DNA of 64,000 nucleotides. Origin: Funiculus sociatus GB2-C1. Lineage in GTDB: Bacteria > Cyanobacteriota > Cyanobacteriia > Cyanobacteriales > FACHB-T130. A program made the translations under genes and the position numbers. The notes under the pieces were generated by a model. It was not told where the DNA came from and did not search any database. It saw only the letters and a list, made by a program, of their open reading frames with translations. Each line of letters starts with the position of its first letter. The first letter of the stretch is position 1. The DNA is taken from positions 186,001 through 250,000 of the forward strand of contig NZ_JAMPKJ010000001.1 in the NCBI RefSeq assembly GCF_039962115.1, written 5' to 3'. Shown here piece after piece: positions 36,132-39,149 of this stretch.

Positions 36132-37049
36132 CTAGTCCCCAGCCCCCATTATCCAATCCAGCAAAATCGGATTAACCAACTCAGGGGCTTCATCTTGTGG
36201 ACAATGCCCGACACCTTCGATAGGAATAAATTTTTCCACTTTGGGATAATTAGCCAACTCTCGCCCCAATTCTATAGGCTCCCAAGGGTCTTCCGTTCCC
36301 CAGAGCATGATTGCCGGACAAGGCAAAAGCGGCAGTAAATCTTCAGGTAGGGGCCCTTGGGAATAGCGCGTAAAGGCTACAAAAACGTCCACAGCGCCCT
36401 CATCAAAGGCAGGAGCCATGAGCATATCTACCAGTTCATCTGTGACGGCTTCCGGATGCTTATAGGCTTGCAGGAGAACCTTACGCACTACCTTCGGTTT
36501 GGCAAGTTGACTAAAGAACAGTTTCCCAATCCACTTTACTGACAGTAGTTGTTGAACTATCGGTGCGCCAAAGCTGCGATACCAGGGCAGTTGAGCGCGT
36601 TTACGATCGTGTAGCAGTCGCAGGGAACAGTTAAGTAAAGCAATTTTTAAGGCAATATCCGGGTTATCCACTGCTGCTTGCATGACAACAATACAGCCGA
36701 TGGAGTTACCGATTAAATAAGCCTCTCCTCCCACAACCTCGCGGCAAAAATCAGCGAGTTGCTGTCCCCAGGTTTCAAAGGTGTAGGAAATCGGATTTCC
36801 TGGTGTGGGTTTAGCTGAACCGCCAAAGCCAATTAAGTCAATAGCATAGACGCGGCACGTTTGCGCTAGGACGGGGATGTTTTTGCGCCAGTGTCCCCAA
36901 GATGCCCCAAAGCCATGCACTAGCACAACTGGCGGCCCTTGGGTTCCTTGGGTTTGGTAGCAAATGGGAAAGCCCCGCCAAGTCCAAGTTTTCGTGACGA
37001 TTTTGGCTGTGGTGGGTGCGATCGCGCTAGGATCGGAAGATAAGGTCAT
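36132..37049 (-). CDS. Alpha/beta hydrolase-fold protein
   Basis: 305 residues. The oxyanion region is VVLVHGFGASWGHWRKN; the nucleophile Ser is in LIGNSIGCIVV; the acid Asp in LWGTEDPWEP; the His in GVGHCPQDEAPELV, so the triad is complete. These cyanobacterial hydrolases resemble pheophytinase or haloalkane-dehalogenase-like enzymes. The substrate is unknown. A stand-alone gene next to the TnpB element. Confidence 0.88.
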   Translation of the reverse strand: MTLSSDPSAIAPTTAKIVTKTWTWRGFPICYQTQGTQGPPVVLVHGFGASWGHWRKNIPVLAQTCRVYAIDLIGFGGSAKPTPGNPISYTFETWGQQLADFCREVVGGEAYLIGNSIGCIVVMQAAVDNPDIALKIALLNCSLRLLHDRKRAQLPWYRSFGAPIVQQLLSVKWIGKLFFSQLAKPKVVRKVLLQAYKHPEAVTDELVDMLMAPAFDEGAVDVFVAFTRYSQGPLPEDLLPLLPCPAIMLWGTEDPWEPIELGRELANYPKVEKFIPIEGVGHCPQDEAPELVNPILLDWIMGAGD

Positions 37050-37120
37050 GGGAGGCGTATCTTTAAATTTCCATCCCCGATCGGGATTTATCGGCTTCCT
37101 TTATTTTACCGAAATTAGTG

Positions 37121-38455
37121 GGTTTAAAGCCCCGCACTTCAGGGCGGCTTTTTATTTATTGTGCTTAGAACTACGATATATTTTTTTATATCGAGCGCAC
37201 TAACGTAAATGTTGGTATTTGAAGCCAAGCTAGAAGGAAAAAAAGAGCAGTACGAGCGGCTAGACGAAGCCATTCGTACTGCTCTTTTTATTAGAAATAG
37301 CTGCGTCAGATACTGGATGGATAATAAAGGAGTTGGGCGATACGAGTTAAGTGCTTATTGTGCAATTCTTGCCAAGGAGTTCCCTTGGGCGAACAAACTC
37401 AACTCAATGGCACGACAAGCCTCTGCCGAGAGAGCTTGGTCATCCATCGCTCGGTTCTACGACTTCTGCAAGAAGGGAAAACCCGGAAAAAGGGGATTTC
37501 CTCGTTTCAAGAAGCATAAGACACACGGTTCTGTTGAGTACAAGACCTGTGGGTGGAAGCTTTCAGAAGACAGAAGGAGTATTAACTTCAGTGATGGATT
37601 CAAAGCAGGAAGTTTTAAGTTGTGGGGAACCCGCGACTTACATTTCTATCAGTTGAGCCAAATCAAGCGGGTACGAGTAATTCGTCGAGCCGATGGGTAC
37701 TACGTGCAGTTCTGTCTTGATGTTGAGCGAATTGAGAACAGAGAGCCGACAGGCAAAACTATTGGTATAGATGTGGGACTAACCCACTTCTATACTGATT
37801 CTGACGGGTCTTCCGTTGAGAATCCACGTTATCTGAGAAAGTCCCAAAAAGCACTCAAGAAGCTTAACCGCAGGCTTTCCAGAACCCAAAAAGGCTCTAA
37901 GAATAGAGCTAAAGCGAGGAATCGCCTGAGTAGAAAACACCTCAAGGTAACTAGGCAGCGTAAAGACTTTGCTGTGAAATTGGCAAGGTGCGTAGTCCAG
38001 TCTAACGACTTGGTAGCCTATGAAGACTTGCAGGTGTTGAACATGGTTAAAAACAAAAAGCTCTCCAAGTCGATATCAGATGCGGCTTGGACAGCTTTTA
38101 GGAACTGGGTAGAATACTTCGGTAAAGTATTTGGGGTGGTGACAGTTGCAGTACCTCCTCGCTACACCAGCCAGAACTGCTCTAATTGTGGTCAGGTTGC
38201 CAAGAAATCACTAAGTCAAAGAACTCATCAATGTCCTCATTGTGGTTTTGTCTTAGACCGGGATTGGAACGCGGCGAGGAACATATTAGAACTTGGACTG
38301 CGTACCGTGGGACACGCGGGAACCTCTAACGCCTCTGGAGATATCGACCTCTGCTTGAGTGAGGAAACTCCTTCAAGTAAGCCGAGTCGCAGAAAGAGGA
38401 AGCCCAAGAAGTGATTCTTGGAATCCCTGCGCGTTTACGCCAGGGAGGATGTCAA
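37121..38455 (+). mobile_element. Solo TnpB insertion element of IS200/IS605 (IS1341-like) type
   Basis: The element carries only tnpB; no TnpA Y1 transposase is present. The left end has a subterminal hairpin (AAAGCC 37126-37131 with GGCTTT 37146-37151). The right end has CCCTG/CAGGG (38425-38429 with 38441-38445), followed by GAGGATGTCAA, a common right terminus of such elements. The boundaries are approximate on the left and near 38455 on the right. Mobility would need TnpA in trans. Confidence 0.7.
37209..38414 (+). CDS. tnpB: TnpB, RNA-guided endonuclease of an IS605-type element
   Basis: 401 residues, full length. The RuvC nuclease residues are intact: Asp in IGIDVGLTHF, Glu in VAYEDLQVLN, Asp in LDRDWNAARN. 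The zinc ribbon (CSNCG and CPHCG) lies between the second and third. An N-terminal OrfB helix-turn-helix and the Arg/Lys-rich middle (LNRRLSRTQKGSKNRAKARN) fit RNA binding. Known family activity: TnpB uses an RNA transcribed from the right end of the element to cleave DNA next to a short motif and helps the element persist. The C-terminal tail (KPSRRKRKPKK) is strongly basic. Confidence 0.93.
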   Translation: MLVFEAKLEGKKEQYERLDEAIRTALFIRNSCVRYWMDNKGVGRYELSAYCAILAKEFPWANKLNSMARQASAERAWSSIARFYDFCKKGKPGKRGFPRFKKHKTHGSVEYKTCGWKLSEDRRSINFSDGFKAGSFKLWGTRDLHFYQLSQIKRVRVIRRADGYYVQFCLDVERIENREPTGKTIGIDVGLTHFYTDSDGSSVENPRYLRKSQKALKKLNRRLSRTQKGSKNRAKARNRLSRKHLKVTRQRKDFAVKLARCVVQSNDLVAYEDLQVLNMVKNKKLSKSISDAAWTAFRNWVEYFGKVFGVVTVAVPPRYTSQNCSNCGQVAKKSLSQRTHQCPHCGFVLDRDWNAARNILELGLRTVGHAGTSNASGDIDLCLSEETPSSKPSRRKRKPKK

Positions 38456-38475
38456 TTTCTTCAACTCTTCTATGT
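38400..38475 (+). ncRNA. Probable reRNA/omegaRNA 3' region and guide
   Basis: By analogy with other TnpB systems, the guide RNA overlaps the 3' end of tnpB, forms the right-end hairpin (38425-38445) and reads through GTCAA (38451-38455) into flanking DNA. The guide would then begin TTTCTTCAACTCTTCTATGT (38456-38475). The 5' boundary is not visible. Confidence 0.4.
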
Positions 38476-38741
38476 ACTTACGCACTTTTTAGCAAATAAA
38501 TAAAAAAGATCCGTAAAAACTCTGATGCTATGTGTAGACACAACTGATAATTATGCCGTGTAAGAAAGCAAAGGGGAAACAAGGTAGAGGGAACAAGGCT
38601 TTTACTCTTTTGTCTTGTCTCCAATCCCCAATCCCCAATCCCCGATCCCCTAGTCCCCAATTTTTTCGCTGTGGATGCAGTTAAAGCGGGGAGTATGTCA
38701 GTATCTAGATTGGGGAATCGTTGACGCAATCTATTTTGTTG

Positions 38742-39149
38742 ATGAATATGGTGCAAACTTCTACCTCTGTTCTGCCATTCCTGGGCCCTGATGTAGCAAC
38801 AACCTATGATGCTGCGCGGGTGGTCATTCTCCCAATCCCCTACGAGGCGACAACAACCTATCACCGGGGATGCGAAAACGGGACAGATTCCATTCTGGAA
38901 GCTTCTCAACAAGTGGAATACTACGATGAGGAGCTAGATGCGGAAACTTGCCGAGACATTGGAATTTACACTTACGAATCTATCGCGGACACACGCAATG
39001 GTAGCTCGGTTTCATCCGAGGCAATGCTAAAAGTCAACCGTGATACTGTGTCTAAGCTGATTGGGGATGGTAAGTTTGTCATATCCCAATTTACGGCAGC
39101 CAAATTGGTCTATAAACTTATAGGTTATAAGGCATTGCAAACCGGCTAG
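38742..39149 (+). pseudogene. speB: Agmatinase gene with a large internal deletion
   Basis: The product starts like cyanobacterial agmatinase (FLGPDVATTYDAARVVILPI, PYEATTTYHRGCENGTDSIL, YYDEELD). After DGKFVIS it jumps directly to QFTAAKLVYKLIGYKALQTG, which matches the extreme C-terminus of agmatinases. About 135 residues remain of a usual 300-340. The missing middle holds all Mn-binding motifs (GGDH, DAHxD, DxD), so the protein cannot be an active ureohydrolase. The reading frame was kept across the junction. It lies 290 bases downstream of the TnpB element. A function for the remnant is unlikely; another speB may exist elsewhere. Confidence 0.75.

Follow-up and report, generated by a model that had tools for sequence, protein, structure and literature searches.

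Conserved RNA structures predicted within the nuclease gene of a TnpB-only IS608-like element from Funiculus sociatus

We analyzed a transposon-borne tnpB gene of Funiculus sociatus GB2-C1 and found that, besides a guide RNA predicted at the right end of its element, the gene appears to carry two RNA structures on its coding strand: (i) a three-way junction over the RuvC-II codons and (ii) a hairpin close to the 5' end. Comparison of related genes gives good support for conservation of both structures beyond what the protein requires, and we read the junction as a possible regulatory RNA that would control guide-RNA production or TnpB activity. Taken whole, our explanation of the locus as an IS608-like TnpB-only element with guided cutting and conserved coding-strand RNAs is, we believe, likely to be right. 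TnpB, which is seen as ancestral to Cas12, also serves as a compact tool for editing. The stretch analyzed (the window) is 64,000 nucleotides long, and coordinates are window positions unless given as nucleotides (nt) or codons of tnpB. A sequence-only reading of this DNA had proposed intact nuclease residues, a guide, an empty site and possible domestication; the first three stood up to analysis and the last was not supported, and the two RNA structures within tnpB had been overlooked. The features discussed below are as follows.

37104-37109, + strand: left flank TTTTAC, holding the insertion target TTAC and the predicted target-adjacent motif; the same bases precede the join in the same-species genome G326
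37110-38455, + strand: TnpB-only IS608-like insertion, delimited by the same-species empty site
37126-37151, + strand: left-end guide AAAG and left-end hairpin (sequence, fold and likeness to IS608)
37209-38414, + strand: tnpB, 401 aa (open reading frame list, profile searches and alignment)
37240-37289, + strand: predicted 5' coding hairpin, codons 11-27, with 22-nt arms that are 91% complementary and a 6-nt loop
37770-37772, 38022-38024 and 38262-38264, + strand: codons of D188, E272 and D352 (alignment)
37938-38036, + strand: predicted three-way-junction RNA over the RuvC-II codons, about 100 nt (model R1 matches 37935-38039)
38337-38455, + strand: predicted scaffold of the right-end guide RNA (reRNA, or omega RNA), from a 33-sequence alignment and fold; its 5' limit is that of the structure, not an RNA end
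38421-38445, + strand: right-end guide GAAT and right-end hairpin (sequence, fold and likeness to IS608)
38452-38455, + strand: TCAA right cleavage site (sequence, related loci, IS608 signals and empty site)
38456-38475, + strand: guide sequence in flanking DNA, TTTCTTCAACTCTTCTATGT (follows TTTTAC without mismatch in the empty site of G326)

The limits of the element were fixed by an empty site. In G326, window segments 36132-37109 and 38456-39082 abut directly (98% identity), the 60 bases displayed on each side of the join are all identical to the window, and the site reads exactly TTTTAC followed by TTTCTTCAACTCTTC. Since the flanks are adjacent in G326, the element spans 37110-38455 on the + strand (1,346 bp) and lacks a target duplication. 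The insert is also missing from the syntenic place in the two same-family genomes that were aligned. The sequence-only reading had given the span as 37121-38475, which misses the true left end at 37110 and takes in 20 bases of flank on the right; the right-end hairpin and TCAA boundary it had drawn, with IS608-type signals present, prove exact against the empty site, the search for which it had itself suggested. Among 93 related loci, the right end reads GGATGTCAA in 69. By eye, 13 of the remaining 24 carry GAATGTCAA and 6 another near variant, and 5 loci have no visible right end, being cut off, degraded or beyond the stretch displayed.

Two observations concern the right flank. At 38745-39149, speB (agmatinase) is shortened to about 135 aa; it is likewise short in the same-species genome, the flanking matches lie about 500 bases farther apart in same-family relatives, and the shortening is not due to the TnpB insertion. 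A short CCCCAAT-type repeat at 38607-38664 accounts for 59 of the 63 matches that the locus query gave in the same-species genome.

The ends resemble those of IS608, an IS200/IS605 element of Helicobacter pylori, for which excerpts of the published account give a TTAC target, an AAAG left guide, a GAAT right guide and a TCAA end (PMC5934647). Held in common are the TTAC target with C at +1, AAAG and GAAT located 5' of subterminal left and right hairpins, the TCAA right cleavage site and the absence of a duplication (PMC5934647). Unlike IS608 as described there, the window element contains no tnpA (PMC5934647). Because the Y1 transposase TnpA is absent within it, we class the insertion as a TnpB-only, non-autonomous element with IS608-like ends; the earlier description of a solo TnpB agrees with this, there being no neighboring tnpA open reading frame. 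Sigma-70-type promoters were found inside the element about as often as expected (2 versus 1.7). We note that many relatives show, by eye, an extended -10-like sequence, TGTGCTATAAT, with a dyad, TTACGTCA..TGACGTAA, just 5' of the start codon, and that both are degenerate upstream of tnpB in the window copy (37160-37208). Elsewhere in the same genome (about positions 1285-1340 of locus L055), a left-end-like hairpin, AAGCCCCGTCC..GGACGGCTTTTTATT, directly follows a gene; searching the genome with the TnpB protein gave no match at this hairpin, which could be either a terminator or what is left of a left end.

As a TnpB, the protein is ordinary. It matched the Pfam domains OrfB_IS605 (3.7e-32) and Cas12f1-like TNB (4.5e-22) and, above the cut-off, NCBIfam guided_TnpB (7.5e-84); the narrower IS200_TnpB and IS607_TnpB models scored below theirs. 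Alignment to solved ISDra2 TnpB chains showed that the RuvC residues D188, E272 and D352 and the zinc-ribbon cysteines C324, C327, C342 and C345 (CSNC...CPHC) are all kept, which bears out the intact RuvC D-E-D and zinc ribbon read earlier from the letters. The closest relatives in named genomes, among the best 80 kept of 542 found, belong to Microcoleus, Tychonema and Symploca. The suggested search for further copies in the genome (a 6.47-Mb assembly of 142 contigs) found the window copy as the sole full-length match, the other five matches being partial.

The assembly holds two Y1-transposase matches, both outside the element and with in-frame stops, and since both are interrupted, the window copy is probably immobile in this strain now, while mobilizable in principle; G326 has one uninterrupted Y1 match among three. 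Domesticated TnpBs, including nuclease-dead repressor types, are expected to be fixed in a lineage or to have lost their ends or their RuvC residues. Here the insertion is strain-variable, absent at the locus in one same-species and two same-family genomes, and its ends and RuvC residues are intact. Because it varies within the species, domestication, which the sequence-only reading had offered as a possibility, is unlikely, and we rejected a domesticated nuclease as a candidate on the empty locus of G326. On this idea, the host would keep an immobile TnpB as an RNA-guided nuclease to cut another target. The lack of a stop-free Y1 transposase in the assembly and the intact catalytic residues are in its favor, but the locus is empty in the three genomes named, the transposon ends are intact, and the genome has no second TTTAC-flanked guide match within three mismatches; we hold it to be extremely unlikely. 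Instead, strain variation, intact ends and kept catalytic residues together give the look of an ordinary selfish TnpB-only IS608-like element. Its expected role, by analogy, would be to cut the empty donor site, as has been proposed for ISDra2 TnpB (PMC8612924).

The guide follows from the boundary. As the boundary is exact in G326, the 20 bases that had been named as the guide, TTTCTTCAACTCTTCTATGT, are right, and a matching target preceded by TTTTAC exists in the G326 empty site. Guide matches within three mismatches in the genome of the window copy are two, one exact (its own site) and one with three mismatches and no TTTAC before it; a reversed control pattern also gave one match, and a second chromosomal target was rejected on these grounds. 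The likeness to the ISDra2 TnpB/reRNA system extends to the RuvC triad, the zinc ribbon, a right-end guide RNA with a flank-derived guide and an expected target motif equal to the insertion motif; unlike the TTGAT of ISDra2, the target-adjacent motif here is predicted to be TTTAC (PMC8612924, excerpts).

Structure and boundary together point to a structured right-end RNA that would draw its guide from the flank. The reRNA scaffold overlaps the 3' end of tnpB and is predicted to form a closing stem and three hairpins (window fold z -4.06). Right ends were present in 67 of 77 homologs, and after 29 without the start motif were dropped and 5 near-duplicates left out, 33 sequences remained. For 26 pairs in these 33 sequences, 94.5% of cells were paired versus 83.7 +/- 0.7 in shuffles (0/500 as high), and double-changed cells numbered 100 versus 29.6 (0/500). 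Covariation is confined to the three hairpins; the closing stem was never altered on both sides, and it was favored by the choice of rows, because the start motif used for selection forms one of its sides. We infer reRNA expression and processing, cleavage and use of the target-adjacent motif.

We turn to the structure inside the gene. The junction covers nt 730-828 of the coding sequence and includes the E272 codon (nt 814-816). The 94 loci, the window included, were reduced to 77 sequences by dropping 4 and removing duplicates. Against synonymous shuffles, nt 751-816 stands out from the rest of the gene outside the 5' hairpin (mean Z -1.96 versus -1.12 for the next window). Synonymous diversity reaches its minimum, about -1.05 bits against a mean of -0.37, in windows starting at codons 242-261, and positions of the junction region rank first in mutual information across the gene. 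For 32 pairs in 52 sequences, picked for diversity from 76 usable rows, pairing was 91.3% versus 86.9 +/- 0.3 in shuffles that ignore relatedness (0/500). When partners were slid, pairing fell to 33-45%, a comparison in which the drawn structure is favored because it comes from the same sequences. The window sequence folds unaided into the same shape (z -2.95).

In a strict test of third codon positions (standard pairing of at least 98%, with two Watson-Crick types common), 2 of 48,246 variable position pairs passed across the 77 sequences, and both, 759-780 and 789-804, lie within junction helices. A loose version passed 76 of the 48,246, made up of 6 from the 145 pairs in the junction region and 70 from outside it; because most fall outside the junction, only the strict version was used as evidence. 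The nested pairs are standard. Pair 789-804 occurs as CG 46, GC 22, GT 5, TA 2 and AT 1; pair 759-780 as CG 47, TA 23, TG 5 and AT 2; and pair 738-819 as GC 37, AT 32, AC 5 and GT 2. On a quick tree of the gene with its structured regions left out, these pairs changed state at least 11, 14 and 10 times, respectively (9, 10 and 8 counting only Watson-Crick states), and they are unpaired in 1, 0 and 6 of the 77 sequences.

These same codons could instead be held constant by codon or translation constraint, recent shared ancestry or gene conversion between insertion sequences, which would explain the synonymous constraint at codons 244-276 without an RNA. The sequences are related, two synonymous haplotypes dominate (AGG..GTC..TTG..GCC and CGC..GTG..CTC..GCG), and strong covariation is also found between non-pairing positions. 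Since high-scoring position pairs between the two linked haplotypes are not standard pairs, part of the covariation signal is linkage. However, third-position pairs switch together as standard pairs many times on the rest-of-gene tree, slid partners fail, the G-U preference is strand-specific, and each haplotype makes helix 2 in its own register; an explanation by constraint, ancestry or conversion is thus very improbable. Helix 2 as drawn is paired in 74% of cells, and in 76 sequences it forms in one register in 45 and shifted by one base in 29, with 2 in neither. That 74 of 76 form it in one register or the other strengthens the structure. At codons 249-270, the two linked haplotypes, AGG/GTC/TTG/GCC and CGC/GTG/CTC/GCG, accompany the two helix 2 registers. 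At several junction pairs the sense strand nearly always has G-U, which in the antisense strand would be a mismatch, and the sense RNA is thus probably the form that functions.

Rfam gave no match at gathering score in the window, and of four matches below that score in 37000-38600 none lies over the junction. In the literature searched, which covered few subscription journals, no description of a structured RNA inside tnpB was seen, and one paper alone was relevant (PMC10278001). In AmaTnpB, nt 825-875 of the mRNA, beside the RuvC-II site, lower DNA cleavage in vitro, and that study asked whether mRNA inhibition is conserved (PMC10278001). The possible likeness is that of a tnpB mRNA stretch beside the RuvC-II codon with possible control over TnpB; by each gene's own numbering, the AmaTnpB segment adjoins and differs from nt 730-828 here, and it comes from one Alicyclobacillus TnpB, whereas ours is a covarying junction in cyanobacterial TnpB (PMC10278001). 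Direct pairing with the guide RNA, as proposed for AmaTnpB, is unsupported here, as the junction has no special complementarity to it (PMC10278001). The junction-reRNA duplex is unremarkable (-50.2 versus -48.2 kcal/mol) and is the lowest window in 19% of 67 homologs, which gives such pairing no support. As to possible sequence mimicry of the reRNA, the longest word shared with it averages 2.7 bases for the junction and 1.6 for other windows (words below 8 counted as 0); 48 of 67 homologs share none, and shared ones are mostly GTAAGT-like. Like the haloarchaeal sotRNA/omega RNA, the junction would be a sense RNA overlapping tnpB; the haloarchaeal RNA occupies the 3' guide RNA position, while the junction is internal and belongs to no Rfam family at threshold (PMC12558985, excerpts).

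The junction is found well beyond this gene. Model R1 has one match in the window and three in the genome, all in tnpB, and it misses two of the genome's five TnpB-like loci. Across the phylum it matches 68 of 292 genomes, counting this one, in a scan that applied the stricter filters meant for large genome sets and scored no more than 13 candidates in each. The 32 loci fetched from this genome and the phylum all lie over TnpB coding sequence, and in 31 much more of the protein is present. R1 also matched 28 of another 30 loci, which came from 25 viral contigs, four plasmid records and one phage record, the two misses being TnpB loci of Thermus and Serratia. Among those matched is Anabaena phage A-1(L) (L203), a cyanophage whose TnpB is closely related and holds this RNA too.

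One locus, L165, encodes just codons 243-290 and 364-401. Over about 400 bp it runs from TTTAC through a left end and a TATAAT-like box to the junction RNA and then, after a gap, to the reRNA and TCAA. When 388 genomes of the order were searched with L165, matches covering most of its length came from at least 5 genomes, all of one genus, with at least 8 copies (L238-L245) in all; these are lower bounds, as two candidates were scored per genome. The copies are dispersed mini-elements that keep both ends, the junction RNA and the reRNA but have lost the protein, and their flanks suggest about five insertion sites. Stop-free Y1 transposase matches are present in the genomes that hold them. Model R1 matches all 8 mini-elements, and the frame of the junction contains an in-frame stop in 3 of them. 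Junction pairing is 0.84-0.91, versus 0.72-0.75 when the nearest sampled full-length copy received an equal number of random substitutions, and 4 to 41 of 1,000 simulations reached the observed value; in this model all substitutions are alike, the copies are related and the nearest sampled copy stands in for the true parent. Three of the 8 fold less stably than the mean of the simulated copies. In pairwise comparisons of four mini-elements, junction divergence was below that of the spacer in five of six and above it in one, and the lowest-diverging part was the reRNA in three, the left end in two and the junction in one. The mini-elements, found in one genus, may stem from one deletion history.

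The junction could extend the guide RNA as a 5' domain, needed or used by TnpB in the ribonucleoprotein, with no braking role, and it is true that the mini-elements have a -10-like TATAAT shortly 5' of the junction and keep the junction together with the reRNA. However, known TnpB guide RNAs derive from the 3' end and run from a scaffold of about 106 nt in AmaTnpB (PMC10278001) to a total of about 150 nt in ISDra2 (PMC8612924), and here about 300 nt of coding sequence separate junction and reRNA; we find this unlikely. Alternatively, both coding-strand structures might just tune tnpB translation or mRNA decay, by attenuation or RNase entry, and leave the guide RNA untouched. For the 5' hairpin this is attractive, since its codons are missing from the mini-elements and a T-rich stretch follows it in many relatives, which argues that this hairpin goes with protein expression. 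The junction, however, is kept where no protein is encoded, and we judge such tuning rather unlikely as an account of both structures.

In the window copy the minimum free energy of the 5' hairpin is -31.8 (z -9.39). Across 77 homologs, nt 31-96 has a mean folding energy of -23.7 kcal/mol, where synonymous shuffles average -12.6 (mean Z -3.32, 84% of sequences below -1.5), and the other 17 windows of the same scan range from a mean Z of -0.89 to 0.13. Pair counts across homologs agree with the shuffles; in contrast, RNAalifold found no structure for codons 9-32 (energy 0.0). In L053 and L054, two TnpBs at a greater distance, the pairing is missing when judged by eye. Strand counts are similar, with 1303 of 1694 cells paired in the sense and 1265 in the antisense orientation. 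The 5' hairpin more probably concerns tnpB expression.

Our preferred explanation, an IS608-like TnpB-only element with guided cutting and conserved coding-strand RNAs, would proceed as follows. Insertion of the element 3' of TTAC would depend on a Y1 transposase supplied in trans. Transcription of tnpB would run through the right end, and the 3' part of the transcript would yield a scaffold of about 119 nt with a flank-derived guide. TnpB with this guide would cut the empty allele at TTTTAC-TTTCTTCAACTCTTC, and repair after the cut would restore the element. The 5' hairpin would tune tnpB expression. As part of the tnpB/reRNA transcript, the junction RNA may be a domain that acts in cis to set a limit on, or the timing of, TnpB-guide assembly or processing, a role that we regard, within the overall explanation, as evenly balanced between right and wrong. 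Brake, processing element and guide-RNA domain are all candidates.

The finding bears on the wider family in several ways. The same-species empty site offers a natural, exactly defined substrate for a test of homing or retention. A covarying RNA near the inhibitory place of AmaTnpB, present in dozens of natural elements, makes it testable with synonymous mutants whether tnpB mRNA regulates its own nuclease, a question that the AmaTnpB study had raised (PMC10278001). If the junction regulates TnpB, codon-optimized TnpB constructs would lose a natural control element. More tentatively, and with somewhat more doubt than confidence, we suggest that TnpB elements of cyanobacteria and their phages may carry a second functional RNA within the nuclease gene, the junction over the RuvC-II codons, that acts in cis and in trans on TnpB activity or guide-RNA production, and that the mini-elements, with just this RNA and the guide RNA, may exploit TnpB made elsewhere.
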